Notes under the pieces: model-generated
What the model saw: the letters and a program-made list of their open reading frames with translations, nothing else
Databases searched by the model: none
Told to the model about the DNA's origin: nothing
Shown: positions 195-19,739 of the stretch, piece after piece
Numbering within the stretch: position 1 is the stretch's first letter
Layout of the letters: each line of letters opens with the position of its first letter
Program-made: the position numbers and the translations under genes
Origin: Halorubrum sp. GN11_10-6_MGM
GTDB lineage: Archaea; Halobacteriota; Halobacteria; Halobacteriales; Haloferacaceae
Assembly: GCF_005435165.1 (NCBI RefSeq)
Contig: NZ_SGUC01000012.1
Span: 1 to 64,000 of the forward strand
Direction: 5' to 3'
Length of the DNA: 64,000 nucleotides

Positions 195-270
195 GCCAAG
201 GTGGCAGAGTCTGGTCAGACGCAGCGGCCTGCAGAGCCGCCCAACGCCGGTTCAAATCCGGCCCTTGGCT
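195..270 (+). tRNA. tRNA-Cys (GCA)
   Basis: The 76-nt cloverleaf has a 7-bp acceptor stem (GCCAAGG with CCTTGGC) and discriminator T, as expected for Cys. The anticodon stem GCGGC/GCCGC carries loop CTGCAGA, so the anticodon is GCA. The T loop is TTCAAAT. The last 11 bases (260-270) recur at 12382-12392, which makes this gene the likely attachment site of the accessory island that starts immediately downstream. Confidence 0.93.
260..270 (+). repeat. Putative attL: 3' end of tRNA-Cys
   Basis: GGCCCTTGGCT, the 3' acceptor strand of tRNA-Cys, is repeated in direct orientation at 12382-12392. Confidence 0.55.
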
Positions 271-434
271 CTCACACGTTACCCTAAAGCCCAAGACGAC
301 ATTGTCTGGGGCTTCACACCTTCTCGTGGACCGTATATCACCTTCTAAATACATTTGGCTGGTCAGTGAGATTCTCGTCTTTTACTGATGACGGTGGCAT
401 CAAGGAAAACCGGCTGGGAATATCTCTCTACCAT

Positions 435-656
435 CTATTCGTCGAGGTCGAGTGCAATATCAACCTCTCGCTCGACCTGTTCGTCAGTACGCGGCCCGTA
501 GAGAGATGTGAAACCGGCATCTTCCAGCACTTCTTCGAACTCCCACCGGGACAGTCCGGCCGCTTCGGCGGCACGTCCGAGCGAGAGGTCGCCAAGAGCG
601 TACCGGCCCACCGCTGTCGCCAACTTGTCTGATGGTTCATCACTCGAAGAGGCCAT
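435..656 (-). CDS. UPF0175-like small protein (antitoxin-type)
   Basis: This 73-residue acidic protein contains the signature LGDLSLGRAAEAAGLSRWEFEE followed by an AGF..LYGP segment. These are typical of the UPF0175 family, small helix-turn-helix-like proteins usually paired with PIN-domain toxins. Here no PIN or other toxin frame is seen in the 160 bases towards tRNA-Cys, nor on the other side before the ERCC4 nuclease gene. It therefore looks like an orphan antitoxin or a solitary regulator. The ATG at 656 is the only good start. The family is recognised by motif; the function is inferred. Confidence 0.7.
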   Translation of the reverse strand: MASSSDEPSDKLATAVGRYALGDLSLGRAAEAAGLSRWEFEEVLEDAGFTSLYGPRTDEQVEREVDIALDLDE

Positions 657-736
657 CGTACGTATCTTTGGAATCCATGGACGTAATAATATAGCTTCTC
701 TTTCGATGTCATTTCATCGAAATACGATAGACGCGC

Positions 737-1261
737 CTATATCGAATGGTCTGCCCCGTCAGAGTTGTCAAATCGTCGTAGCAGGCTGTGGCGGACGAGA
801 CAGAGAAACGCACAGCGTTCGGCTTGCTGTCGACAGTTGGCGAAATGAAACGCCACGTTGTAGTGGCGAGTCCACGCCGAGACGGTGCCCGCTATCTGGT
901 TCGGATGGATGTCTCGCCACGTCATGGGGCCACGATTGCAAAGCAGGGCTTCCCAAGACTCCTCTACGACGACCGTAAGGGGCTGTGTCCACTCGGCGGC
1001 CCGCTGCAGTTCGGACGTGAAACGGTCTCGTTCCCAGGTGAGTGCGGTGAGGAAGTCGTGCCCGGACTTTCGCTCAACCGCAAACTGAGGATGGTAGGTG
1101 TCTGCTTCTACATCATGTGCACAGTCGGCGGGGAGGGCGTAGTCGCCAGTCGAGAGTGTCACGTCACGCGTCTCGACTGCATATCCGTCGAACGTCCACG
1201 GCTGCTGTTCACGGTTGTCTCGCAGTACTGTGGTGGGAATCGTGTGTGGTGGTTCGTCCAT
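737..1261 (-). CDS. ERCC4-domain (XPF-type) nuclease
   Basis: This 174-residue protein consists almost only of an ERCC4 nuclease domain. An early LRDNREQ segment (about 13-19) supplies acidic residues, and the catalytic V-E-R-K-x3-D motif is at 62-69 (ERK 63-65, D69). XPF/Mus81/Hef-type enzymes cut 3'-flap or branched DNA with this motif. The helicase and helix-hairpin-helix parts of archaeal Hef/XPF are absent, so it is a stand-alone nuclease. It lies just upstream, towards tRNA-Cys, of a large SWIM protein encoded on the same strand (68-bp gap), and next to XPB-Bax1. This suggests a branched-DNA processing role in the island. The tail after residue 150 looks poorly conserved. Confidence 0.8.
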   Translation of the reverse strand: MDEPPHTIPTTVLRDNREQQPWTFDGYAVETRDVTLSTGDYALPADCAHDVEADTYHPQFAVERKSGHDFLTALTWERDRFTSELQRAAEWTQPLTVVVEESWEALLCNRGPMTWRDIHPNQIAGTVSAWTRHYNVAFHFANCRQQAERCAFLCLVRHSLLRRFDNSDGADHSI

Positions 1262-1329
1262 CTACCGAGCAATGGGGCTGGTATCGGACATGAACCCTCG
1301 TAGGAAGGTGAGCACCCTCACAGACTCGG

Positions 1330-3276
1330 TTAGAACCCTGCCTTTTCGAGTTCGTCGAGAAACGCCGGCCGGTTCGAGTGTTCGTCTTTGAGGAACCCGA
1401 CAAATTCCTCAAATCGCTCTTCGGGGACGAGCTCCTGCATCTCTTCCAAGTGGTCGGCAATCTCCCGATAGTGGCGCCGTCCGGTTTCGCCGGCGGCAAA
1501 CGGGATAAGCAGCTCCCGGTACTGCTCAAAGTACTCTACCGGGGCGACGCTGGCGACTGGCTCTCGGTATCGTTTCAGTAGGGAGAGGTCGTCACTGTCT
1601 TTCAGTTCAGCAAACGCTTTTTCGAGGTCGCCATCGTGGATGTACAGCTTGATGAGCTGCTGTCGGTCGTCCGCAAACTGTTGTTCGAACTCTTGGTGGA
1701 GCGATTGCCACTCCTGGTTATCGCAGATCTCTTTCAGCTCGTCGTAGGCTGCCCACTCCGTGTGGTCGAGGAACAACTGTTTCAGTGTGTCACGATAGCT
1801 GTCCGGGTTCCGCCCCTCGTAGAGGTCAGCGGCGAGCCAGCGAAGATTGCGTGTCGAGCCGAAGGTGTGGATGCCGTCTTCGATGACATCAATCGCCCGC
1901 TCTTCGTCTCCATCGTCTCTCAGTCGCTTGGCGTATTCTTTGCAGAAACGGGTGCTTTCGAGATAGACTTCCTCGTACAGCGCCGAAAGCGCTTCTTCCT
2001 CACCGAGTTCTTCGAGGGGATAAATGTACGTGGAGATAACACGCCGTGTCTGAAGCGAGGACGATATCTCTGTCTCGTCTGCACGTGATCCGGTCAGTTC
2101 GACATCGACGGTGTGTTCCTCGATGGTGGTCGGGTCGTCCACGCGAAGTTCCTCGAACGCGTCACCGACGAAGTACTCCAGTTTCAGTGTCCCGACACCC
2201 AGATGTTCGATATCAAGCGTCCCGCGGGTGAAATCGTCGGTGGTGAGCGGTCCGTCAGTGAAATCGGAGACATAGAGGATATCATCCACTCGGTCACGAT
2301 GGCGCTCCGATGTATCGTCTGTCGCCGACTCGTGCTCCGAAGGAGATTGCTTTCCCGATTTCACTATATCGAGATCGACGCCCGACACATGGGAATCTAG
2401 CGCCTCCAGCCAGTATTCGAGATCGTCAGCCGTCGTGCAGAGTGTCCGCAGCGCGTCGTCGTAGTAGTCACTGGCGAACCCGTGGTCGGCTTCGATGAAC
2501 TCCCGGCAGAGATACTCGATATACGGTTGTTTTTGTTCGTGGTCGAGACCCTGTTCCACGACCGTCTCCGCGTACGACTTGATAGCTCGCTCGATTTCAC
2601 GTCCGTAATGCCCTCCGCTGTCGTCGACCCGGTTAAGGTTCTCGCGGATTGTCTCTGCAATCGCTCGGTAGATATCCGTCGCCGAATCGATGTGGCCTCG
2701 CTCCCGATGTGTCTCCGCGAGGTCGTGGTACTGTGAGAAGTCGATGTACGTGTCGTGTTCGACCATCCCCCGACGACCGGCCGCATCCTCGAACAACTGA
2801 CCGATCTCTTGTTTGTAGTCGTAGACCGTCTTGCCGGTGGCTTCGCCCGTGAACGCAACGAAACGGTCACAGATGTCACGGTCGTCTTCGATGACTTCGA
2901 GCAGAAACGTTCGGAGGTCCGCAACGGCCGTTTGTTCGACCAGAGCCTCGATATCGACAGTTTCCGACACCGTCCTGTCTGAATCATCAGCGTTGCTGCC
3001 CGTCCCGGTATCACGGTCGTCGACGGCCAACAGGACTGCGACGATGTGCTTGCAATCTCCTGCGTAGTCGTACGGACAGCTACAGCGGGTACGGATGGGG
3101 TCGGTCGTTACGTCGATAGCCACGTCGTAATAGTTGGAGCCCCGGACAGTTGCGCTGATTTCGCCGCCGTCGATATGCAGTTCCTGAACACGGTCTTGCT
3201 GGTAGTAGTTGCGTCCCCGTTCGAAAGATTGCTCGGTGCAGAGAGCCCGGATCTCTTCCGGCGTCGGGTAGTCCAT
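1330..3276 (-). CDS. Large SWIM zinc-finger protein
   Basis: The 648-residue protein begins with an N-terminal region shared with the small SWIM protein at 8034-8834 (FERGRNYY, G-S-N-Y-Y-D). It then has a SWIM finger C-x-C-x7-C-x-H at residues 65-77 (C65, C67, C75, H77). SWIM domains bind DNA or proteins and often accompany SNF2/XPB-type helicases. The remaining 550 residues are acidic and helical, with repeat-like helices (about 430-640) that could be TPR/HEAT-like, probably a scaffold. It is divergent from the XPB-Bax1 operon (91-bp shared intergenic space), so the two may be co-regulated. No catalytic motif is visible. The family call is firm; the role is inferred. Confidence 0.8.
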   Translation of the reverse strand: MDYPTPEEIRALCTEQSFERGRNYYQQDRVQELHIDGGEISATVRGSNYYDVAIDVTTDPIRTRCSCPYDYAGDCKHIVAVLLAVDDRDTGTGSNADDSDRTVSETVDIEALVEQTAVADLRTFLLEVIEDDRDICDRFVAFTGEATGKTVYDYKQEIGQLFEDAAGRRGMVEHDTYIDFSQYHDLAETHRERGHIDSATDIYRAIAETIRENLNRVDDSGGHYGREIERAIKSYAETVVEQGLDHEQKQPYIEYLCREFIEADHGFASDYYDDALRTLCTTADDLEYWLEALDSHVSGVDLDIVKSGKQSPSEHESATDDTSERHRDRVDDILYVSDFTDGPLTTDDFTRGTLDIEHLGVGTLKLEYFVGDAFEELRVDDPTTIEEHTVDVELTGSRADETEISSSLQTRRVISTYIYPLEELGEEEALSALYEEVYLESTRFCKEYAKRLRDDGDEERAIDVIEDGIHTFGSTRNLRWLAADLYEGRNPDSYRDTLKQLFLDHTEWAAYDELKEICDNQEWQSLHQEFEQQFADDRQQLIKLYIHDGDLEKAFAELKDSDDLSLLKRYREPVASVAPVEYFEQYRELLIPFAAGETGRRHYREIADHLEEMQELVPEERFEEFVGFLKDEHSNRPAFLDELEKAGF

Positions 3277-3367
3277 CTGTTACGTCCTCCTACCACGTTC
3301 GAGACCGAAAACGTACTGCTGTACCCAACAGATTGAATCGTACTTGGCGCGTGCGTTCACACACTGA

Positions 3368-4780
3368 ATGCGGCTCGAATTCGACGACGGCACGCTGGTG
3401 CTTCACGACGCACCCGAAACAGTCCCGTACGCGGAGTGGGACGACCGCGTCGACGAGTATCGCGCGCAAGCCTATCGATATCGAGCACTGCTAGACTGGG
3501 CTGGGCACTGGACAGATGACGATGAACAAGCCACACTACAAGACGGATTTACGCACGACATCGAAGATACTGCCCGAGCCTATCCTGACTTGGCCCTGAC
3601 GCCAGCGCTCCAAATCGAGCCACGTGACTACCAGCAGGCTGCCCTCGACGCGTGGCGTACACACGACCGGCAAGGCTCCGTTATCTTGCCGACTGGCAGC
3701 GGGAAGACCTTCCTCGGATTGCAGGCGATTGCCGACGCCGGCGTGAGCGCGCTCGTGGTCACACCGACGATTGACCTCATGAACCAGTGGCACGCAACAC
3801 TCACCAACGCGTTCGGTGACCAACTCACAGACGATATCGGCGTCCTCGGTGGTGGGAGTCACGATATCGGAGCAGTAACCGTCACAACTTACGACAGCGC
3901 CTACCGCTATATCGACGAGTACGGCGACCAGTTTGGTCTACTCATCACCGACGAGACGCACCATCTCGCGGCCGAAACATACCTCCAGATTCCCGAAATG
4001 ACGATTGCGCCCTACCGGTTGGGCCTCACAGCGACCTACGAGCGCGCTGACGGCCGCGAAGAACTCCTCGAAGACCGGATGGGACCGGTCGTCTATCGAG
4101 AGGCCGTCGATAATCTTGCGGGCGAATTCCTCAGTGAGTACGAAACCATCCAGATGTCCGTAGAACTTACCAGCGAGGAACGGACCGAATACGACGACGA
4201 GTATCAGATCTACCGGGACTACGTCGACAGTCACGACTTCGATCTCTGGAAAGAGCAAGGCTACGCGGAGTTTCTCAAGCGGACCGCTTACGACCCGCAA
4301 GGGCGACGGGCGCTCGTCGCAAAGCAGCGAGCCGAACGCATCGCTCGCACTGCGACCAAGAAACTCGATACACTCGATAATCTGCTCAAACGTCACCACG
4401 ATGACCGCGTTATCGTCTTCACCGCGAACAACGATTTCGCCTACGACATTTCGCGGGAGTTCATTCTCCCGTGTATCACCCACCAGACCGACACCGACGA
4501 GCGCACCGAGATTCTCGAACGGTTCCGCTCCGGGGAGTACTCCATGCTGGCTACTTCGCAGGTACTCGATGAAGGGATCGATGTCCCCGCAGCCAATGTC
4601 GGTATTATCCTCTCGGGAAGCGCTTCGAAGCGACAGTACGCCCAACGGCTCGGCCGAATCCTCCGCCCTACTGATGACCGCCAGCCAGCACGGCTCTACG
4701 AGATTATTACGACCGACACGATGGAGACGTACGTCTCCCAGCGACGCCGTGATGGGGTGAGTAGCAGTGCTGACAGCTGA
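3368..4780 (+). CDS. xpb: XPB-like superfamily 2 DNA helicase
   Basis: This 470-residue helicase has an N-terminal damage-recognition-like segment (1-85), a Q-type motif (PRDYQQAALDAW), Walker A PTGSGKT at 108-114, motif II DETH at 195-198 and motif III GLTAT. The second RecA domain shows VFTANN, ATSQVLDEGIDVP and QRLGRILRP. This arrangement and size match archaeal XPB. The last 14 bases overlap the next gene, a Bax1-like nuclease known as the partner of archaeal XPB; the pair unwinds and cuts DNA in a bubble/NER-like manner. The start ATG at 3368 gives the full N-domain. It is probably the first gene of a two-gene operon reading away from the large SWIM gene. Confidence 0.9.
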   Translation: MRLEFDDGTLVLHDAPETVPYAEWDDRVDEYRAQAYRYRALLDWAGHWTDDDEQATLQDGFTHDIEDTARAYPDLALTPALQIEPRDYQQAALDAWRTHDRQGSVILPTGSGKTFLGLQAIADAGVSALVVTPTIDLMNQWHATLTNAFGDQLTDDIGVLGGGSHDIGAVTVTTYDSAYRYIDEYGDQFGLLITDETHHLAAETYLQIPEMTIAPYRLGLTATYERADGREELLEDRMGPVVYREAVDNLAGEFLSEYETIQMSVELTSEERTEYDDEYQIYRDYVDSHDFDLWKEQGYAEFLKRTAYDPQGRRALVAKQRAERIARTATKKLDTLDNLLKRHHDDRVIVFTANNDFAYDISREFILPCITHQTDTDERTEILERFRSGEYSMLATSQVLDEGIDVPAANVGIILSGSASKRQYAQRLGRILRPTDDRQPARLYEIITTDTMETYVSQRRRDGVSSSADS

Positions 4781-6116
4781 TCTCGCACGGTCACGAACAC
4801 GTGAGGGGGAGGTTCGGCCGCTTTTTATTGATATGTCCGACGAGCAGTATCGGGAGACGGCAGCCACACTTATCGACCTCTTCGAATCCCATCTCGGTGA
4901 ACCCAAAGGCGACCTTGAAGCTGCCATCGACGAACTGACTGTCGACGACACCGACTACAAGATCGTTCAGGGATTGGCGAAGCTACTGAAAGACGAGTGT
5001 GACTTCAAGCAACAGGCCGCTGTCGAGCCGCGCGAGATTCGCCAGCGACTGTTCGAACGCGCGAACGACAGCTACCCGATCGTTCGCCAGCCGACCCTCG
5101 GCGAAGACACACAGAAACTCGAAGTGTACAGCGCAGTCGCCGACGAACTCGGCATCTCACTCGAAGCGTGCTACCGAGGTATGTACGCGGATCTGGACGA
5201 TAACAAACGACTGGTGCGGTTCGGGGAGCAGACTGTCGACGGGTATGACGAGGAAGAGAGTGACACATCGACGACCAAGCTGACCGGAAACAGCGAGCAG
5301 GAGTACGACCAGACCGAACAGACTGTCGACTGGTTGCTGGCGCGGTACAATCTGGCGTTGGCCCAAGCCGTTCTCTATGACGCTTCGGAAATGCGGATTC
5401 GTGTGTGGGACCACTTCGGCACGGTGTTTAGCTACGTGAAATTGTTCGGGCTAATGCACCGGATCTATCCAATCGATGTCGACGGGACCCGCGTCGACAG
5501 TAAGGACGACGCCGCCGGCTACGAAGCAGAACTCGACGGTCCAGTGTCGCTGTTTCGGAAGTCCCAGAAGTACGGTATACGGATGGCGAACTTCCTGCCG
5601 GCCCTGCCACTGTGTGACCGTTGGGAAATGAACGCCGAAATTCTCGACGACGACGCAACCCGTACCAGCCATCAGTTCACGCTTGACACCACTGATGGGC
5701 TCGTCTCGCACTACAGCACCGGTCAGCAGTTCGATAGCGATATCGAACGAACGCTTGCCCGGAAGTGGGAGCGAGCAAACACCGAATGGGAACTCCAGCG
5801 AGAAGACGACGTGTTCGACCTTGGAGACGAGGTGATGATTCCGGATTTCGCCATCGAACATCCCGACGGCCGACGGGCGATTCTGGAGGTTGTCGGCTTT
5901 TGGACCCCGGAGTACTTGGCGTCGAAGCTGGCGAAGATTCGGCACGTCGACGCCGACAATTTCGTGTTAGCGGTTTCGGAGCGACTCGACTGTGCTGACG
6001 AAGACTTTGGGGACGCCGCGGATCGCGTATTGTGGTTCAAGAGTGGGATTCACGTCTACGACATAGTCGAGTTAGCCGAGGCATACGCGTCGGCCACCGA
6101 GATGGACCGTCGTTGA
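4767..6116 (+). CDS. bax1: Bax1-like nuclease (DUF790), XPB partner
   Basis: The 449-residue protein opens with the DUF790 N-terminus (MLTADLARSR, then REGEVRPLFI). It ends with a PD-(D/E)xK-like nuclease region containing E-D-D-V-F-D-L-G-D-E, PDFAIEHP and LEVVGFW (about 350-385), with the expected D...E-x-V spacing. Bax1 (binds archaeal XPB) is a structure-specific endonuclease that works with XPB helicase. The genes overlap by 14 nt, implying translational coupling and a fixed complex. Length and gene order agree with other archaeal xpb-bax1 pairs. Its presence within a tRNA-linked island suggests that this copy is horizontally acquired. Confidence 0.88.
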   Translation: MLTADLARSRTREGEVRPLFIDMSDEQYRETAATLIDLFESHLGEPKGDLEAAIDELTVDDTDYKIVQGLAKLLKDECDFKQQAAVEPREIRQRLFERANDSYPIVRQPTLGEDTQKLEVYSAVADELGISLEACYRGMYADLDDNKRLVRFGEQTVDGYDEEESDTSTTKLTGNSEQEYDQTEQTVDWLLARYNLALAQAVLYDASEMRIRVWDHFGTVFSYVKLFGLMHRIYPIDVDGTRVDSKDDAAGYEAELDGPVSLFRKSQKYGIRMANFLPALPLCDRWEMNAEILDDDATRTSHQFTLDTTDGLVSHYSTGQQFDSDIERTLARKWERANTEWELQREDDVFDLGDEVMIPDFAIEHPDGRRAILEVVGFWTPEYLASKLAKIRHVDADNFVLAVSERLDCADEDFGDAADRVLWFKSGIHVYDIVELAEAYASATEMDRR

Positions 6117-6180
6117 ACGCGCGGCGACGCACGCTCACTTCGGCGAGGTTTCAAGTCCCAAGAGTACCTATCGATATTCA

Positions 6181-6471
6181 ATGGCGACCCAGCAGTATCG
6201 AATCGTCTCTGCCGAAGACTCGGAGATTCACGGGGAGCCCCATATAGAGGGGAGCCGCGTCACCGTCCAGGATGTGCACGCACGCGTTGAAAAGCGCGGA
6301 CTCGCCCCCGGACGAGTCGCCGAGCGATACAACTTAGACATCGCAGATATCTACGAGGCGCTCGCGTATTATCACAACAATCCCGATGAGATGCGACGGG
6401 TTGAGAAGCGCCACGAGCGAGCGGCCACCGAAGCCAGAAAGCGGTCGTCACTCACGCCACCCGATAACTGA
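6181..6471 (+). CDS. DUF433 antitoxin-like protein
   Basis: This 96-residue protein has the DUF433 pattern: a short strand, HGEPHIEGSRVTVQDV (about 19-34), and a helix-turn-helix-like segment APGRVAERYNLDIADIYEALAYYHNNPDEM. DUF433 proteins are DNA-binding antitoxins usually encoded just before a DUF5615 PIN-like toxin, which is exactly the next gene (3-bp spacing). The C-terminal basic helix probably holds the partner. The start at 6181 fits the family N-terminus. Confidence 0.85.
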   Translation: MATQQYRIVSAEDSEIHGEPHIEGSRVTVQDVHARVEKRGLAPGRVAERYNLDIADIYEALAYYHNNPDEMRRVEKRHERAATEARKRSSLTPPDN

Positions 6472-6474
6472 TCG

Positions 6475-6819
6475 ATGACGTATCGGCTCATCCTCGACGA
6501 GAACGTCGAACACGAGGTACTCCATCGGCTTGAGAACTACGGACATGACGCTGAACACGTCGATTTTGTGCCCGAGTTCGGAAAGGAGACTGCCGACCAT
6601 CCGATCGCACGGTATTCGCTCGACACCGATCGCGTGATTGTGACATACGACGACGACTTCGTACTTGAAGTGGACGAAGGGCTGTATCGAGCGGTATTGT
6701 ATTTCGACGATGCAACGCTTTCTGTCGAGCAGGTCGCAGATATCATCCACACCGTTTCGCAGAACTACCCACAGGCGGAGTTGCAGGGTCTTGAGTACGT
6801 TGGCGAGGAATGGCTCTGA
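6475..6819 (+). CDS. DUF5615 PIN-like toxin
   Basis: The 114-residue protein begins RLILDENVEHEVLHRLENYGHDAEHV, the typical opening of DUF5615 PIN-like nucleases (Mut7-C/PIN fold). Acidic residues at D8, E9 and E12, and the later VIVTYDDDFVLE (about 58-69), give a PIN-type metal site. It follows the DUF433 gene after 3 bp, so the two form a VapBC-like toxin-antitoxin module. It may stabilise the island, since loss of the island would leave free toxin; that last point is inference. Confidence 0.85.
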   Translation: MTYRLILDENVEHEVLHRLENYGHDAEHVDFVPEFGKETADHPIARYSLDTDRVIVTYDDDFVLEVDEGLYRAVLYFDDATLSVEQVADIIHTVSQNYPQAELQGLEYVGEEWL

Positions 6820-6896
6820 GCGACGGCCCGGTCACCTCGAAGCTCAAATGTGGCGAGCTCCCTCATGAGAACCTTTCTGTGAAACCCGCTGTATGT

Positions 6897-7265
6897 TCAG
6901 CCCAATCGCCCGCCGTCGCCGTTCCAGTAGTGCCAGTCGTCGACGGCTTCTCTGGTATCGCTGTCTCCGTCGAGCACTTCGAGTTGTGACAGTGGCACGC
7001 CAAATTCCCGGTCCATCCACTCCACGAGAACGAACATCTCCCTGTTGCTGACGACTTCGTCCGTCATGCCTACGACTGGCACCTCTTCATCCTCTCTCAG
7101 CGGGGAGATCGTTCGCTCCTCGATACATCGTGCCTGGAATGGGAACGTCATCTCGCGTTCGAGGTGATAGCACCAGCTGATAGCCATCTCATCTGCCGTG
7201 TAGGCATCAGTGAGTATCTCCCTCCGAATGCGCTTGTTTCGCTCTTCGTCTGTCTCCTGCGTCAT
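6897..7265 (-). CDS. CcbP-like calcium-binding-type protein
   Basis: The 122-residue acidic protein contains ILTDAY..DE.AISWCYHLEREMTFPFQARC. This resembles the family around cyanobacterial CcbP (I-V-D-x-Y-x(3)E-x(3)-W-x-Y-Y-L-E-x(3)F-P-F). A small beta-barrel with acidic surface residues follows. It is the last gene of a four-gene minus-strand operon; its start overlaps the stop of the pRiA4b ORF-3-like gene by 4 nt (ATGA). The cyanobacterial founder binds Ca2+; whether this one does is unknown. Family assignment rests on the motif only. Confidence 0.6.
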   Translation of the reverse strand: MTQETDEERNKRIRREILTDAYTADEMAISWCYHLEREMTFPFQARCIEERTISPLREDEEVPVVGMTDEVVSNREMFVLVEWMDREFGVPLSQLEVLDGDSDTREAVDDWHYWNGDGGRLG

Positions 7266-8041
7266 GGTCGCTTCTCCCTGACAACCGCAGCCGTGTCGGT
7301 CGACGTAATCACGTCGTTGTCGTCAAGAACCGTCTCAAGTTCATCAGGTTCGTAGACCTCCTTGACGATGCAGTAGTAGTGCGACGGCGTGCCGAAATCG
7401 TAGACCAGACCGAGTCGGTCCCCCTCCCAGAGCCCGGCACGCTCGGCGACCTCTGCAATCGTCATCTCGCTCGCTCTCGTATATGAACGGTCACCCGCTT
7501 CTTCGTACTGGTGGTCTGGAAGCACGTTGAGACTGGAGTCGAGATACTCGTCTTCGAGGCCGTACATCCGGAGATGAAAGTCATCGAGCGTGGTGAACCG
7601 ACAGACGAGCCTGTCCAGTTCTGCCATCGTCGTCTCGGGGCTGACGACGATGTCGTACCACTCGTCTCGCGCACGCCCTTTCTGCTTCCACCGGAGACGA
7701 TACCCGACGGTTCCGATTTTCTCGGCGATGTCGTCGTCGCCTCGTTCTTGTGCTTCCCCTACTGCGCTCTGCGTGTTCGACCAGCAGTACGAACAAATCT
7801 CGTCCGGTGCATCGCCCTCGAATCCGTCTTTGTCGATATCATGGTCAGCTGTGAAGTCAGCGAACGAAACGCGTTGATCGCCGGGACGACGGTAACCCCT
7901 ACTGCACATCTTTTCGCCGGATACACGCGGACCGAGTGAAAATCGAGACTCCGCCTCAGACTGGTCGGCATCCATATCGATAATATGCGCTACTGTGCCG
8001 CTCCCGATTTCGATGACGAATCGGTCTGTTAGCTCACCCAT
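7262..8041 (-). CDS. Plasmid pRiA4b ORF-3-like protein
   Basis: The 259-residue protein has, from about residue 110, the fold pattern of the pRiA4b ORF-3 family: a strand YRLRWKQKG, W-Y-D-I-V-V, T-x-x-E-L-D-R-L-V, H-L-R-M-Y, then Y-D-F-G-x-x-x-x-Y and V-K-E-V. The N-terminal 100 residues contain two CxxC-type or single cysteines (CSRGYRR, CSYCWS) and look zinc-related. The family is common on plasmids and near SWIM proteins and helicases, but its biochemical role is not established. The start overlaps the SWIM gene by 8 nt and the stop overlaps the CcbP-like gene by 4 nt. Confidence 0.65.
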   Translation of the reverse strand: MGELTDRFVIEIGSGTVAHIIDMDADQSEAESRFSLGPRVSGEKMCSRGYRRPGDQRVSFADFTADHDIDKDGFEGDAPDEICSYCWSNTQSAVGEAQERGDDDIAEKIGTVGYRLRWKQKGRARDEWYDIVVSPETTMAELDRLVCRFTTLDDFHLRMYGLEDEYLDSSLNVLPDHQYEEAGDRSYTRASEMTIAEVAERAGLWEGDRLGLVYDFGTPSHYYCIVKEVYEPDELETVLDDNDVITSTDTAAVVREKRP

Positions 8042-8834
8042 CGTATCGCTCCTCGAGGTCGTCGACCGCGCGCCAGAACTGTTCGCTATTGAGTGCTAGA
8101 TCCGTCGTCGTCCGCGCTTCCAAGACACCAGCATAGGTATCGAACTCCTCCGGAGTTGGATCGGTTGCAAGGATGCAGTCGGCGTAGCCGTCAATGGCTC
8201 GCTGGATGGTTTTCGCGTAGTGGTCGTATGCTCCGTCGACCCACTTGTACTTCTCGTCCACTTCTTCGAAAACGGCCCGATAGACCGTCGCCGCGGCCAG
8301 ATACCGATCTCGTTCACGGTACTGCTCGGCAATCTCGAAAAACCGGGAGAAGTCAATTGTATCGTACACCCCTGGGTCGGCGTGCTGTTCGAATAGTTGG
8401 GCGATTTCCTCACGGTACTCCTCGACCGGTTTGTGGTCGTCGCCGAATTGTGCGAGAAACTGCTCGCGTAACTCCGGATGCTCGGCGAGTGCGTCACGGA
8501 CGAACCCACGCAAGTCGTCGGCCGACACATCCTCGAGAATCCCCTCGACACGCTCGCTCTCGTCTTGTGGCGGGCCCTCGACTATCTCCAACAGGACAGC
8601 AGCAACGTGTTTGCAGTCGCCGCCCCCATCATACGGGCAGGTACAGTTGGTGTCGAGACTGCGCCCACCAAACTCGATTGTTATGTCGTACAGCTTCGAC
8701 CCACTAACAGCTGCCGTTACGAGGTCGTCGAACCGGTCAACTTGTTGTATCCGCCCCTCCTTCCGGTACTTTTGTCCACGCTCGAACACGGCATCTGTGG
8801 TCCGATCCCGGATAGTGTCCTCGTCGACGTTCAT
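8034..8834 (-). CDS. Small SWIM zinc-finger protein
   Basis: This 266-residue SWIM protein has the finger C-x-C-x7-C-x-H at residues 64-76 (C64, C66, C74, H76). The stretch before it aligns with the large SWIM protein of the same island (FERGQKY..G-S-K-L-Y-D versus FERGRNYY..GSNYYD), so the two are paralogues. An in-frame ATG exists at 8885, but the ATG at 8834 aligns with the paralogue's N-terminus and is preferred. The rest is helical (LRGFVRDALAEHPELREQFLAQFG). It is the second gene of an operon headed by the DUF1998 helicase (22-nt gap after the helicase stop). A DNA- or helicase-adaptor role is inferred. Confidence 0.8.
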   Translation of the reverse strand: MNVDEDTIRDRTTDAVFERGQKYRKEGRIQQVDRFDDLVTAAVSGSKLYDITIEFGGRSLDTNCTCPYDGGGDCKHVAAVLLEIVEGPPQDESERVEGILEDVSADDLRGFVRDALAEHPELREQFLAQFGDDHKPVEEYREEIAQLFEQHADPGVYDTIDFSRFFEIAEQYRERDRYLAAATVYRAVFEEVDEKYKWVDGAYDHYAKTIQRAIDGYADCILATDPTPEEFDTYAGVLEARTTTDLALNSEQFWRAVDDLEERYDG

Positions 8835-8856
8835 ATCTTGTCGTTCGCAGCCGAGT

Positions 8857-11223
8857 CTAATCTGATTTCGGTTTGACAGTGTCACCCTGCCTGTCCGGGT
8901 CAGCCAGCGCCATCGTGAGTGTCACCGCGAGGCGTTTGTCGAGTGGTTCGTTCGCCCGGCCACAGTGGGGTGACTGGATACAGGCCGGACAGCCGTCCGA
9001 ACAGCCACAGTCAGCGAGCAACCCCCACGTGTGCTGGAGGAGTTCCTCGATGTGGTCGTATCCGTTTCGGGCCAGTCCGACACCACCTTGGTAGCCATCG
9101 TAGATGAACAGCGCACTCGTCTCGGTTTGTGGGTGGTCCGTCGTCGAGACGCTGCCGACATCACGCCGGTCACAGAGGATAACCAGCGGGAACGTCGCAA
9201 CGAGGGCATGCTGGACGGCGTGGAGTCCGCCGTCGAACGACCCGGACATCGTCTGCATGAGACCTTCGAGTCCGGGTGGAAGCGTCAGATACAGCGCCCG
9301 TGTCGAGAGTGTCGTCTCGGGGAGGTCAAGTGATTCCTCATGGAGAACCTCGCCCGTTCGGTGGTCTCGTCGCTGGAAACCGATGACCTGTTTCCGGCGG
9401 GTCACGTCCGCAAAGTGGACAGTCACATCTTCTCGGGTCGCCAGCGGTTTGCTGGTGATGTCTTCCTCGATTGTCATCGACTCCTCGAACTGGACGCGGG
9501 TCTGGTAGTCACTGTCCGTCGGCGACAGCCACGCCACGTCCCGGTCGAGGTCGAGTGACTGGACCTCGTAACTCTGGCCCTGATGATGGTATATCGCACC
9601 CGTATGAACGTCCCGAAGTGCGGCGTCGAGGGGCAGTTCGCCGAGCCGATCTGATTGCCCACCCCGGACTCGGAGGACGACAGTGCGATCGGTGATGGTT
9701 CGGAGCCCACGCTCGTAGGGGTTTACCGTTCGACCACTGGCCGTCCGTCGCCATTCGAGGCCATCGGCTGTCTGTTGCCGTGACAGCGCTCCTTCGTCTG
9801 TAAGCGTGCTGACAATGCCAGGAAATGTCGAACCGAAATACTGCTCGTCAGCCGTTCGAAGCGGGTGTTCGATAGCCGCAGCATGGGTGTGCAGTCGGAG
9901 GAGATGTGGGTTGGATGGATCGGCAACGGCACGTTCCGGGGTTCCCTCGAACAGTTCTTTCGGGTGGTTGATGACGTACTGATCGAGTTGGTCTTCGCTG
10001 GCGACGAGAGCGACGAGACTCGGGTCCGTCCCACGCCCGGCGCGGCCAGCCCGTTGGAACGTCGACATTTGCGTCCCCGGGTAGCCGTCCAGCAGTACGG
10101 CATCGAGACTCCCAATATCGACGCCGAGTTCGAGCGCACTGGTACTCCAGACGCCGGCACATTCGTTTGTGTGCAGAGCTGTCTCGATGGCCGCTCGTCG
10201 ATCATCGCGGAGTCCCGCATGATAGGCAGTGACCCCCTCAGCGATGTCGGGTTTCCCGCGTTCTGTGAGTGTATCGCTACTGATGGTGGCGTAGCGCTCT
10301 GCCGTCTGTCTGGCGCGTGTAAACGCTACTGTCTGGTAGCCGCGTTGAATGAGGTCGACAAACAGTCGCATGGTTTCCCCGTGATGGGAGCGACGTTGGC
10401 CTGCCCCGGCGGGTGCGTCGCCCTCGTCGTATTTCGGTGGCTGCCAGAACAGCCAGTGTGTAGGGCCAGTTTCGCTGGTATCCTCGTCGACGAGGGCAAA
10501 CGACTCTGTGGGCTGGCCGGTAATCGTCGCCGCGTGCTCGCGGGGATTACCGATCGTCGCGGAACAACACACGAACTGGGGGGCCGCACCGAATCGCTCA
10601 CAGAGACGTGTGAGTCGGCGAAGCACGAGTCCGACGTGACTACCAAACACCCCGCGATACTCGTGGACCTCGTCGACGACCACGAGGTCGAGTGATTCGA
10701 AGAACGTGCGCCAGATATCGCTGGCGTGACTGAGCAGGCCACAGTGGAGCATATCGGGCGTCGTCAACACGATTGATGGGTCCTCGTCGCGGGCCGCCTG
10801 GCGCTCTGCTCCGGAGAGTGCGCCCGTATACTGTGTCACCGACACGTCGTCGAACGGTTCAGCAAACGCCGATAGCGTCGCTTCCTGGTCGTTGATCAGG
10901 GCGACTTGCGGGCCAATATACAGCGTGCGTCCGTCGTGGTCACGTGCGCGCTCTATGGCTGGAATCGTGTATGTGAGACTCTTGCCGCTTGCTGTCGGCG
11001 TCGCCAACACGACGTTCTGGCCGCGCCGACTGGCGTCGATCGCCTCGGCTTGGTGTGCGTAGAGTTCGTCGATGCCCCGGTTAGCGAGCCGTTCGCTGAC
11101 CTCACGGTTCATTTCACATGGTCGTGTCTCGGGGCGGCGAGCAGGTATCGACTGCTGGAACTGTATCTGGTTGTGGTAGTAGTCCCGATGCCGAACCCAG
11201 TCGACGAACTCGTCCACTACCAC
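8857..11223 (-). CDS. MrfA/Hrq1-like DEAD/DEAH helicase with DUF1998
   Basis: The 788-residue superfamily 2 helicase has Walker A ATPTASGKS at 74-82, motif II DEVH at 184-187, motif III CSATIGNP, and motif VI near QRAGRAGRG. It ends in a DUF1998 domain with the four-cysteine cluster C-G-C-x3-C-x2-C-x5-C (about 735-755). This layout matches YprA/MrfA and the helicase core of Hrq1, 3'-5' enzymes linked to repair of mitomycin/crosslink damage. DUF1998 also occurs in defence systems such as DISARM, there as a separate protein. It heads a tightly packed operon with SWIM, pRiA4b ORF-3-like and CcbP-like genes, an arrangement I do not recognise from described systems. Confidence 0.88.
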   Translation of the reverse strand: MVVDEFVDWVRHRDYYHNQIQFQQSIPARRPETRPCEMNREVSERLANRGIDELYAHQAEAIDASRRGQNVVLATPTASGKSLTYTIPAIERARDHDGRTLYIGPQVALINDQEATLSAFAEPFDDVSVTQYTGALSGAERQAARDEDPSIVLTTPDMLHCGLLSHASDIWRTFFESLDLVVVDEVHEYRGVFGSHVGLVLRRLTRLCERFGAAPQFVCCSATIGNPREHAATITGQPTESFALVDEDTSETGPTHWLFWQPPKYDEGDAPAGAGQRRSHHGETMRLFVDLIQRGYQTVAFTRARQTAERYATISSDTLTERGKPDIAEGVTAYHAGLRDDRRAAIETALHTNECAGVWSTSALELGVDIGSLDAVLLDGYPGTQMSTFQRAGRAGRGTDPSLVALVASEDQLDQYVINHPKELFEGTPERAVADPSNPHLLRLHTHAAAIEHPLRTADEQYFGSTFPGIVSTLTDEGALSRQQTADGLEWRRTASGRTVNPYERGLRTITDRTVVLRVRGGQSDRLGELPLDAALRDVHTGAIYHHQGQSYEVQSLDLDRDVAWLSPTDSDYQTRVQFEESMTIEEDITSKPLATREDVTVHFADVTRRKQVIGFQRRDHRTGEVLHEESLDLPETTLSTRALYLTLPPGLEGLMQTMSGSFDGGLHAVQHALVATFPLVILCDRRDVGSVSTTDHPQTETSALFIYDGYQGGVGLARNGYDHIEELLQHTWGLLADCGCSDGCPACIQSPHCGRANEPLDKRLAVTLTMALADPDRQGDTVKPKSD

Positions 11224-11301
11224 CTACTACACGCGCAATCGCATATAGGGATATAGACTCGTGTCCTGAACATTTTACCCGAAGCCGTCGTACCAATCGA
11301 C

Positions 11302-12273
11302 ATGCCATTCAGTGTCAGTTGGCACACGCTACTCGACGAACTCGATGACCTCTCCGAGGGGGCTGAGCTCATTACCCCGCTCTCCGAGGACCGATTTCGC
11401 ATTACCGATGTCCAGGAGCATCGTGTCGTCATTACGTTCGACGAGTCCGGTGAGCGCCACCCACTCCAGCGTGAGCAATTCGAAACGCTCTACCGGCGGA
11501 TTCAGGATTCTAATAGCGAATTCGAGCTTGACCGTCTGCCAGCCGACGCCGACCCGTATCCAGCAGTCCTGAGCCTATATCCACGCTTCGAAATCGACAG
11601 CGACCGAGGAGTCATCATCGAAACGGAGGACCCGACAGACACACAACTCGTTGACGGTGATACCGCTCCTGATGCGGATGCTCGTATCGAACCCGACGGA
11701 CTGGATGTCTACTCCGATGCCTTGCTTCTCATTGATGCACTGGAGCGCCACGACGTGACAGACCTCAGTGAACTTGAGACAGACGCCTTGGTGAATATCT
11801 ATACGCTCTGTTCGGATGTGCAACGGAACGCAAACGAGTTCCGGCAGGATGTCGCCGACGTGCTACTCAACCGTCTCCATCACGACCAACCTGTCCACGG
11901 CCAGTACGGTTCGGTCCAGCGAACGTCACGCCGAAATCGCTCACTCAGAGACGAGGCAGACGTGCTGGATACGCTTGAAGACGCTGGGATTGCGCGTGAA
12001 CGCGTCATGAGTGTTGATTCGAGTAAAGTGGCAGAAGCACTGGACGTAACGGAGTTAGCGGAGTCGGATGTCTACGAAGTCTCCGAAAGCGAGTACGTTC
12101 GGAAAGCCGAAGTCGATGACGAGGTCAAAGAGTCGCGTCTACAGGGGCTAAAAGACCGATTGGCAGCTAGCGACGATGCGGAGTCGGACGAACTACGACA
12201 GGAAATCGAAGCCCTCGAAGAGCGTATCGACGACCTCACCAGCTTTAGCACGGGAACAGAGATCCAGGGGTAG
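11302..12273 (+). CDS. Conserved-type acidic protein of unknown function
   Basis: This 323-residue acidic protein is divergent from the DUF1998 helicase operon (78-bp shared promoter space rich in ATATAG). The N-terminal 70 residues have a beta-rich small-domain look (ITPLSEDRFRITDVQEHRVVITFDESGERHPLQREQFETLYRRI). The middle is helical (LSELETDALVNIYTLCSDVQRNANEFRQDVADVLLNRL), and the end is a coiled coil (about 285-315, DELRQEIEALEERIDDL). No catalytic motif is evident. Its position suggests that it belongs to the same island module. I do not recognise a family. Confidence 0.6.
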   Translation: MPFSVSWHTLLDELDDLSEGAELITPLSEDRFRITDVQEHRVVITFDESGERHPLQREQFETLYRRIQDSNSEFELDRLPADADPYPAVLSLYPRFEIDSDRGVIIETEDPTDTQLVDGDTAPDADARIEPDGLDVYSDALLLIDALERHDVTDLSELETDALVNIYTLCSDVQRNANEFRQDVADVLLNRLHHDQPVHGQYGSVQRTSRRNRSLRDEADVLDTLEDAGIARERVMSVDSSKVAEALDVTELAESDVYEVSESEYVRKAEVDDEVKESRLQGLKDRLAASDDAESDELRQEIEALEERIDDLTSFSTGTEIQG

Positions 12274-12483
12274 GTCGAACAATTTAGGAAAGATATGGCG
12301 ATTCAGGGTCTAAGAGCGTATAAATACGCAATATTAACGTTAAGTTACTGTTTCTATTATATAAAAGCCTGCCTGTTAGCTGGCCCTTGGCTTTCTGTTT
12401 CTGTACGAGGTGTGGCCCGCAAGCGGTCCCGCGAACTGCCCCGCTTAGTAACCGTTAAACACCGGGTGACCCATGCGTCAACT
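12274..12483. other. AT-rich island border, no gene
   Basis: This 210-bp stretch contains AT-rich TATA-like sequence around 12316-12330 and 12355-12366, the 11-bp tRNA-Cys repeat at 12382-12392, and then an abrupt return to GC-rich sequence. A long in-frame upstream extension of the next gene runs through it but looks non-coding. Confidence 0.5.
12382..12392 (+). repeat. Putative attR: copy of tRNA-Cys 3' end
   Basis: GGCCCTTGGCT matches 260-270 exactly and in the same orientation. It lies at the point where accessory sequence gives way to GC-rich core sequence. Confidence 0.55.
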
Positions 12484-16478: not shown

Positions 16479-19400
16479 TCACGCCAGCCAGTCGTCGGGC
16501 TTCGTGTCGTAGTCGACCTCGTCGGCGGCGATCCGCGCTTCGATCGCGTCGTCGAGGTCGTGTTCGGTGACCTCGCCGCCGTCGTACTGTAGCCGAACGC
16601 CGACCTCGGTCCCCTCCGGCTCCTCGCCCCGCCGCTTGGCCCGCCGGACCTCGCCGTCGTCGTACTCGACCCGGATCGTCGCGAGGTTCACCGGGCGACC
16701 CCACAGCTCGAAGACCCGTTTCAGCGTCGCTCGCGCGCGCTCCTCGTCGAGCGCGACGCCGTTGTACCGGTGGCCCAAGAGGAGTTCGCCGCGGTTCCGG
16801 AAGTTCCCGTCCAACACGACGACCGTCGGCTTCCCGAAGTTGGTGAACCGCAGGAGCAGCTTCCTCCGCACGTCGTCGGCGTCGACGCTGGCGACGCGGT
16901 GTTCCTCGGCGGCCCGGCTGTACTCGTAGGTGAAGTAGTTCCCCTCGCGGACGAACTCGTCCGTCAGGAACGCGTCGATGAACGTCACGTCGTTGTGGCT
17001 CTCGCGGACCTCGACCATCCGGTCCCAGCCGGCCGCGCGGTCGACGTCGGCGACCGCCGCCGCCACCGTCTCGTACCGGTCCACGTCGAACAGGTACCGC
17101 GCCTGCTCTTCGAGCGCCGCGCGCGAGACGTTCCGGAGCGCGCCGCGGTGTTCCGGCCGCGAGAGGACGTAGTGCCGCTCGGCCAGCCCCTCACGCGTGA
17201 GCAGCTTCCACGGGTACCGCTCGACGTCGATCCCGTCGTCTGCCTCGCTCTCACCGGCATCGGCGCCGGCCCCGCGCTCGTCCCGCGCGGACAGCGCGCG
17301 GTCGACCGCCTCGGCGTCCACGCGCGGGTCGCCGTCGGCGGCGAGTTCGGCGAGTTCGTCGAGCGTCGCCGGACCGGCGCCGGCGATCGCCGGATGGGGT
17401 TCGAGCAGGTCGGCGACCTCGTCGAGGTCGACCCGCGAGTGGAAGTTCTCCGGGGTCACTCCTTCGACGCGGAGCAGCTTGTCGAGGACCTCCCGGCGGG
17501 CGGCCCGCAGCTCCACGTGAGTCCACAGCTCGAACCCGAGCTTGTAGGGGTTGAGTCCGGGCGAGCCGAGCACCCGGGACATGTGGTCGGCGTACGTGAG
17601 GAACTCGTCGGGACCGGCGAACCCCTCGCCGCCCATCATGGTGGATTCCCAGTACGAGTTGTGGTTGATGAACCCAGCCCCCGCGTATCGGTGAGTTTCC
17701 TCCACGGAGATGTCGTACACGTCTCCGGTTCCCTCTTCGACACTTACGACTTCGTCAGTCCATTCCTCGATTTCGAACCACGCGAGTTCGTCGAGATACT
17801 TCTTGAGCGCTTTGTCCTTGGAGGAGTAACCGAACCCGATCTCCTCATGGAACCGATCGGCAGACTTGCCGGTCAAATGAACGTGGAAACAGCCGTCGGA
17901 CTGTTCTCGACGACGTGAGAGGATATCGAAATTTGCCAACAGTAGCTGTACGACCTTCGAGACCGATTTACTCTTAGTGCTGAGAATCACTCCTTGGTCA
18001 CCGGCGTATCCATCAGCGTCGAACAATCCTCGGAGGAATTCGCTCACAACTGGTTTCGGCGAGCGAAGGACGGGTTTTGGGACGATTTTATCGGCTGCGC
18101 CCGTTCGCAGATCGAACCACTCCGTGAGCAGCCGAACCAGATTCATGGAATAAATGTACGCCCGCCATCGCGATCCGTCTTCGGAGACGGTCGGAGAGAC
18201 CCCGAATAGTTCGTCGGCCAATCCGGCGAACTCCTCGGCTTTGGCCTTTGAACCGGACGTAAATCCTACTTGGCCGGACGCTTTCGAAACGTGTCCGTCT
18301 CCGACCAGTAAACCGAGAAGGCGTCCGAGTTCCTCGGAAACCCGATCGGGAACGGCGATGATCTCGCTCTTCGCGACGATCTGGTTCTCCCCGTCGTACG
18401 ACGTTAGTGCTCTCTCGATGGCCTCAGATCGTTCCGCACGCCCCGTCTTACGATAGCGCATAACGGTCCAGATCGAGACGCCTGCCTCGTCGGCTACGTC
18501 GTCAAGGGTAGTGTGTTCCGGATGCTGCCAATCGATATCGACGTAACTTGTCGACCAAAGGCCGCCTCCACCTGATATCTCGATCTCGTTACCTTTGGAG
18601 ATATCCCGCATTTCAACCCATGAACCGTCCGGTTTCCGGACCCGGTGGCTTTCGGAACCGCGTAGTTCGAAGCCGCGTCGAGTCTCGATCGAAACGGTAT
18701 CGTGATCCGCAATGACGTTGGAGTCGTAGGTGGCTCGTGCCCCGTTACCGTCGGATACGGTGGGGAGATCTTCGACGACTTCGCACATCGGAAGGAGCCC
18801 CTCCTCGGTAAAGACGGGAGTGTCGGGGGCGACACAGGCCCATCCCTCGTTCATGACCTTCGTTTGTTTCTGGCCTGCAAAATAATATGCCTCCTCGCGG
18901 ACCGCGTCGATGACGGTCGTCTCCCACGGCTCGCGGTCGACCGCCTTGCCGCTCTCGGGGTCGTACCGCTTGCCGTGGTCGCGCAGGAACGCGAGCACGT
19001 CCGGCCGCGGCTCCTCGGGCTCGACCCCCTCGCCCCTCGCTTCGAGCCACTCGTCGTCGAACACGTCGCGACGCACCTCCTCGGAGAGGTCGAGGTCGTC
19101 GATCCGGGCTTCGATCGCCGCGAGCGGCTCGTCGTCCCCGTCGCTCACGTCGGCCGCGACGCCGGGCTCCTCGACCGACCGTGCGGCGTCGACCGGGCTG
19201 TGTTGGTCGATCGCGTCTTCGAGCGCGCTCACGGCGTCGATCAGCCGCTCGACCTCGTCGCGGTCGACGTCGGTCCGCGCCGCGATCGCGGCGATCCGGT
19301 CGGCGTTGCGCTCCAGCCGCGCCGCGGCGTTCGGGCCGTCCTCGCCGCGGTCGGCGTACAGGCCGAACCACTCGTTGTTCGCGAAGAAGTCGGCGTGCGC

Positions 19401-19739
19401 CTCCACGTGGGTGATGACGGCCTTCTGGTCGGCCGCCGAGTTCGACTCCTGGAGGAACGCGTGGGCCGGGTCGTCGTTGTTGACGATCTCGAACGCCTTC
19501 CCGAGCCCGTGACGGTCCAACTTCGACTGTCGCTCGTAGTTCATCCCCCACCGCCAGTGCGGGTACCGGCGCTGGAAGCCGCCGTAGGCGATCAGCTCGT
19601 TCATCTGGTCGTGGTCGACGACCCAGTAGCGGACCGGGTACGGCGCCAGTCCGAGCCGCTCCGCCAGCTCGCGGGCCTCACGCGCCGGCTCGTCGAGCGA
19701 GTCGGCCTCGCGTTTCGCCTCTATCCGGTCGTCCCTCAC
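16479..19739 (-). CDS. spoVR: SpoVR family protein interrupted by an intein
   Basis: The precursor is 1086 residues. Removing residues 302-694 (intein) leaves a 693-residue SpoVR protein. The insertion point is the family's most conserved motif: NEGWA, then the intein Cys, resuming after the intein with SYWESTMM, so splicing restores NEGWASYW. SpoVR proteins (YcgB in E. coli) are cytoplasmic, of unclear biochemistry, and accompany PrkA kinase and YeaH in stress/starvation responses. The gene ends the prkA-prkA2-yeaH-spoVR operon, overlapping yeaH by 4 nt. An acidic insertion about residues 165-230 is typical of halophiles. Function of the mature protein is inferred from the family. Confidence 0.93.
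17658..18836 (-). other. Intein with LAGLIDADG homing endonuclease (in SpoVR)
   Basis: This is a 393-residue in-frame intein. It starts with Cys1 ([13 protein letters not shown], block A), has a block B-like G-S-E-S-H, and ends with block F ([17 protein letters not shown]) and block G (FINHN), followed by Ser as the +1 residue. Between these are two DOD endonuclease motifs (LLGLLVGDG and LRGLFDADG). All splice-junction residues are present, so it should splice. A helix-turn-helix-like segment ([19 protein letters not shown]) lies before the first endonuclease motif. The DNA is visibly less GC-rich than the flanking extein, consistent with transfer. Confidence 0.95.

Follow-up and report, generated by a model that had tools for sequence, protein, structure and literature searches.

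Closest described systems

The archaeal XPB-Bax1 complex (PMC7293015, PMC7672443) has been modelled as making the 3' incision, with XPF making the 5' incision (PMC7293015). Bacillus MrfAB contains MrfA, a mitomycin repair helicase (PMC11194089), and the YprA-family defence systems (DISARM, Dpd, Druantia, ARMADA, BRIGADE and TALON) carry a DUF1998-type superfamily 2 (SF2) helicase in a mobile multi-gene locus; 'YprA only' helicases are reported to have no conserved genomic context (PMC12458937). Mycobacterial homologues are reported to be able to replace DruE of Druantia III (PMC13316683). The present analysis concerns a stretch of 64,000 nucleotides from Halorubrum sp. GN11_10-6_MGM (contig NZ_SGUC01000012.1, positions 1 to 64,000; hereafter the window), in which positions 271-12392 constitute a complete site-specific integrative element of ~12.1 kb at the 3' end of a tRNA-Cys gene. 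Its genes make up a conserved module that has XPB-Bax1 as its basis and has spread horizontally; the other members are an overlapping operon (MrfA-type helicase, SWIM, pRiA4-like and CcbP-like proteins), a SWIM-TPR protein paired with an ERCC4 nuclease, and the protein o11302.

The likeness to the archaeal XPB-Bax1 complex lies in the overlapping genes for XPB (3368-4780, plus strand; PF18458 and PF16203) and the Bax1 nuclease (DUF790; 4767-6116, plus strand; PF05626, 439 bits), in the retained damage-recognition domain of XPB and in the catalytic E/D/E residues of Bax1, which are kept at the positions aligned with E275, D305 and E318 of AfBax1 (6p66). Here, however, the pair is mobile and tied to genes for CcbP-like, pRiA4-like, SWIM and o11302 proteins; a distant Bax1 homologue is encoded elsewhere in the window's genome. 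The Bax1-XPB (rad25-type) locus on pNRC100 of Halobacterium NRC-1 (L174) is a minimal form of the module, with the o11302/pRiA4-like pair adjoining Bax1-XPB, but no CcbP-like, SWIM, MrfA-type helicase or ERCC4 gene is annotated beside it.

The element resembles MrfAB in its helicase, which is co-linear with MrfA over 25-751 and keeps the four-cysteine DUF1998/MZB domain, whereas an adjacent MrfB DEDDh exonuclease is missing and the partners are SWIM, pRiA4-like and CcbP-like proteins. With the YprA-family defence systems it shares the DUF1998-type SF2 helicase and the mobile multi-gene layout, but it has no PLD nuclease and the helicase can be lacking. Pfam matches within the element include neither the PglX-type methyltransferase domain of DISARM and ARMADA nor the deazaguanine modification genes of Dpd, and the BrxA-like and zinc insertions that mark the Druantia, ARMADA and BRIGADE helicases (PMC12458937) are not present. 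The element belongs to none of MrfAB, DISARM, Dpd, Druantia and ARMADA, in agreement with the first-pass annotation, which had set its composition apart from MrfAB and DISARM. The cassette helicase clade appears to be an exception to the rule for 'YprA only' helicases in PMC12458937, its place in that tree having been assigned by architecture. A description of a module of XPB-Bax1, CcbP, pRiA4, SWIM and o11302 was not found in the open-access papers searched, subscription papers lying mostly outside the search.

An integrative element at tRNA-Cys

The integration target is tRNA-Cys(GCA) (195-271, plus strand; ARAGORN), which adjoins the ERCC4 end of the element. An 11-bp direct repeat, GGCCCTTGGCT, equal to the 11 bases that precede the last tRNA-Cys base, forms the attL core within the 3' end of the gene (260-270, plus strand) and the attR core (12382-12392, plus strand), beyond which the chromosome resumes; the 64-kb window holds two copies, with 0 expected. 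The empty site is seen in at least nine Halorubrum genomes (L159-L165, L170 and L171), where tRNA-Cys runs directly into the sequence that follows 12392. GC content is 57.8% inside the element as against 66.6% outside. Cassettes flanked by the 11-bp repeat on both sides also occur in Haloarcula vallismortis (L050, 409/14689), Halapricum hydrolyticum (L053, 7181/21046) and genome G093 (L110, 3870/17708); in Halorubrum alkaliphilum the two copies are split over two contigs (L003 and L056), and in Natronorubrum (L115) the tRNA end of the cassette is present while the other end lies beyond the contig. L003, L050, L053, L110 and L115 agree with the window in which cassette end tRNA-Cys adjoins. The att repeats, the empty sites and the identical ends in other genera bear out the earlier proposal of a tRNA-linked mobile island.

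None of the element genes scanned with Pfam has a domain of the integrase, Rep or relaxase type (the 58-aa UPF0175-like ORF being judged through its homologue). Various other insertions occupy the same tRNA-Cys site: ~84 kb in G233:C63, close to one end of which a tyrosine integrase is encoded (L168/L169), 11-kb inserts that include a sensor kinase (L166 and L167), and mini-elements that measure 1.9-2.2 kb and use the same att site (L006:627-2556 and L127:9604-11793). These mini-elements carry a SWIM gene plus toxin-antitoxin-like genes; L006 has a UPF0175 and a PIN-like ORF. Beside attL, the palindromic sequence AAGCCCAAGACGACATTGTCTGGGGCTT (272-310) is partly conserved among elements. The 35 nt of tRNA-Cys end plus downstream sequence are present once more at L003:6042-6076, as after a tandem integration. 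In SHR40 (L055, 7574-20119), a reduced cassette (o11302, helicase, SWIM and SWIM-TPR) lies between repeated copies of tRNA-Gly(GCC), which suggests another integration site.

The overlapping operon

Four minus-strand genes, which the first-pass annotation had singled out, occupy 6897-11223, and their coordinates match its description exactly: the helicase and SWIM genes are separated by 22 nt (8835-8856), the SWIM and pRiA4-like genes overlap by 8 nt (8034-8041), and the pRiA4-like and CcbP-like genes overlap by 4 nt (7262-7265). The MrfA/YprA-type helicase (8857-11217, minus strand; 786 aa) is counted from the GTG at 11217, where its homologues begin, within an ORF that opens at 11223 (788 aa). 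Its Pfam domains (DEAD, Helicase_C, WHD_HRQ1 and MZB, the MrfA Zn-binding domain or DUF1998) and its match to Bacillus YprA (6znp; E 2.6e-122), which contains no large insertion, substantiate its naming as an MrfA-like helicase with a zinc DUF1998 domain.

The remaining family names fared unequally. The SWIM zinc-finger protein (8034-8834, minus strand; 266 aa, ATG start) scores 28.5 bits against the SWIM profile (Pfam cut-off 19.6), with the CxCx(n)CxH motif intact in the sequence CTCPYDGGGDCKH. Its placement as a PDC-S62 or DpdE member was rejected, as the matches are partial and that to DpdE covers the SWIM region only. The CcbP-like protein (6897-7265, minus strand; PF11535) reaches 114 bits against the CcbP profile (cut-off 21.5) and 62.9 bits against Alr1010/CcbP (2k2v); the family assignment is solid, and calcium binding would follow from the family name only. 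The name pRiA4b ORF-3, on the other hand, is weak since the PRiA4_ORF3 match of the intervening protein (7262-8041, minus strand) reaches 19.3 bits, below the cut-off of 26.6, over its C-terminal half. Alignment indicates a two-part protein, in which an N-terminal half with an invariant CSYC (a CxxC region) and no family match precedes the pRiA4b ORF-3-like domain. Predicted structures of o11302 (pLDDT 39) and the pRiA4-like protein (pLDDT 37) were unusable for fold searches.

The four-gene arrangement is not due to chance, because the same order recurs in other genera (Haloarcula vallismortis, Halapricum and Salinibaculum) with dN/dS of 0.06-0.13 for the set; in Halorubrum alkaliphilum and one metagenome-assembled genome the order is kept as far as the contig end. 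The overlaps are retained in Halapricum. Neither of the findings by which the first-pass annotation would have been refuted applies: the four genes are neighbours in other genomes too, and the helicase does not occur solely as an isolated housekeeping gene, a separate housekeeping copy being present in the genome. Two parts of that annotation have to be revised. The unit was cut too short, as the conserved cluster spans tRNA-Cys to 12392, and the helicase is not its centre, being truncated or absent more often than any other member. A helicase-centred reading was rejected on this ground, as several cassettes that are alike in other respects have a lost or incomplete helicase (a remnant is left in G084, G093 and plasmid pHsi204).

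Distribution and shared core of the module

Some related helicase occurs in all 292 of the haloarchaeal genomes (292/292), while the cassette helicase clade (at least 82% identity) is confined to 7 of them. The clade is monophyletic with support of 100/100 and intermixed genera, and the cassette helicase is 92.5% identical to that of Haloarcula vallismortis, compared with 61% between the housekeeping copies of those two genomes; within the window's own genome the second, housekeeping copy shares 53% identity with it. The related chromosomal helicase was also followed at 30 loci, and at none of them did the flanks taken hold any other queried cassette gene.

Cassettes come in two architectures with a common core of o11302, SWIM protein, pRiA4-like, CcbP, XPB and Bax1. 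Architecture A is that of the window; architecture B comprises a long SWIM protein (c17), pRiA4-like, C2H2-TPR, CcbP, XPB and Bax1. By eye, 28 of 41 near-full-length CcbP matches lie at most 5 kb from a Bax1 gene of the cassette clade, and 20 of 25 near-full-length pRiA4-like matches at most 6 kb from a CcbP match (one of these CcbP matches being a fragment). Related cassettes are also plasmid-borne. The o11302 gene (11302-12273, plus strand; phrog_35116), a partner in both cassette types, occurs in 69 plasmid records and lies near ParA on pNRC100. Viral contigs yielded relatives of neither the pRiA4-like protein nor o11302; in phage records, o11302 was not found and the SWIM protein gave one distant match.

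As regards single contexts, several type B loci (for example, L108:2648-3316) have a DUF7509 gene and a helix-turn-helix (HTH) gene beside o11302; the DUF7509 gene is present in nine loci, and by eye only its product seems to have a nucleoside-deoxyribosyltransferase-like fold. In N. gomsonensis, a plasmid copy of CcbP-XPB-Bax1 is flanked by a TIR gene on one side and PglX-type genes on the other, an anecdotal pointer to defence. The bacterial CcbP genes of three plasmids had no XPB-Bax1 in their surroundings; on Leptolyngbya plasmid pLBX (L135) the CcbP gene adjoins PDDEXK nuclease and DUF499 genes, a defence-like context.

Catalytic parts and selection

The second nuclease is a stand-alone ERCC4 (XPF-type) protein of 174 aa (737-1261, minus strand), with the ERCC4 domain as its sole Pfam domain and no fused helix-hairpin-helix or helicase domain. 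The GDXnERKX3D motif is intact (GDY and ERKSGHD), and ERKX3D recurs in 10 of 10 homologues. This nuclease is ~50% identical to nucleases of the tailed haloviruses HRTV-7, HSTV-2 and HCTV-6. Its neighbour, the SWIM and TPR-like protein (1330-3276, minus strand; 648 aa; Pfam), is kept in L050, L051, L053, L055, L001 and L003. Across nine element genes dN/dS is 0.06-0.19; the repair-type catalytic motifs are intact and the genes are under purifying selection.

Proposed function and alternatives

The cargo of two repair-type helicases, two repair-type nucleases and zinc-finger helpers is probably used against either invading DNA or damage. We infer a horizontally spread DNA-incision machine centred on XPB-Bax1, acting mainly against invading viruses and plasmids rather than in general repair, with a probability of about 0.48. 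The element products would act together as one DNA-processing machine: the SWIM, pRiA4-like and CcbP-like proteins may recognise or license abnormal DNA or its bound state as recognition and control parts, XPB and, where kept, the MrfA-type helicase would open the duplex, and the bubble would be cut on the 3' side by Bax1 and on the 5' side by the ERCC4 protein. Invaders are favoured as the main target because the cargo travels on mobile elements in cells that have housekeeping copies of their own. A general repair role is opposed by the patchy distribution on mobile DNA, by the duplication of housekeeping functions and by the finding that UvrABC suffice for dark repair in Halobacterium NRC-1, where the eukaryotic-type homologues have no shown repair role (PMC1590041). 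Tentatively, the element may even represent a new haloarchaeal class of anti-invader system, in which nucleotide excision repair (NER)-type XPB-Bax1 and an XPF-type nuclease are turned to immunity under the guidance of CcbP-like, pRiA4-like and SWIM proteins, on small tRNA-Cys elements that an integrase acting in trans would mobilise.

Several observations weigh against an anti-invader role. Helicases of the undecorated 'YprA-only' architecture, such as that of the element, are placed in the repair branch by PMC12458937, and every catalytic part of the element is repair-type. PADLOC and Pfam showed defence-type genes among 120 cassette neighbours and also among 120 control proteins, which were taken from other places on many of the replicons concerned. 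Frequent truncation of the helicase implies, moreover, that the full gene set is not needed. The element could instead be a mobile DNA-repair cassette, in which NER-like dual incision and the MrfA-type helicase would handle mitomycin-type adducts or crosslinks, and which would spread by helping cells under UV, desiccation or crosslinkers. The resemblance to the mitomycin repair helicase MrfA, the lack of defence-type insertions, the retained damage-recognition domain of XPB and the intact Bax1 and ERCC4 motifs are consistent with such a cassette. Nevertheless, it is the less likely reading: the clade is found in a minority of genomes, the cells that have it possess a housekeeping helicase as well, UvrABC explain dark repair in NRC-1, and XPB/XPD mutants of other archaea are just slightly sensitive (PMC7776575).

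That the proteins serve the excision, transfer, replication or maintenance of the element and not the host is unlikely, even though the genes occupy nearly the entire element, o11302 sits at attR and recurs on plasmids (near ParA on pNRC100), the SWIM gene also rides the mini-elements and the ERCC4 protein resembles halovirus nucleases. Against this, the scanned genes include no integrase, Rep or relaxase domain, and other elements at the same tRNA hold unrelated cargo that is devoid of cassette genes. Varying composition and lost pieces would fit passenger genes that hitch-hike together with no joint function; the same core in two architectures and many genera, dN/dS within 0.06-0.19 and the overlaps conserved in Halapricum make this highly improbable.

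Plasmid-borne haloarchaeal XPB/Bax1 genes, including the pNRC100 copies, have been left unexplained by repair genetics and are now placed in a recurrent mobile module. Its defined partners and ends make the question of function directly testable in Halobacterium NRC-1 and Haloarcula. A use in defence would add another example of immunity built from repair enzymes, and a use in repair would make the module a transferable repair kit.

Other genes of the element and the window

Apart from the module, the element encodes a UPF0175-type antitoxin-like ORF (435-611, minus strand; 58 aa as called, with the homologue at L006:2137-2358 matching PF03683), a DUF433 protein that is likely an antitoxin (6181-6471, plus strand; Pfam) and a DUF5615 PIN-like protein that is likely a toxin (6475-6819, plus strand; Pfam). 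Further along the window (16479-19739), a LAGLIDADG intein interrupts a SpoVR-family gene, with a DUF444 gene adjacent.

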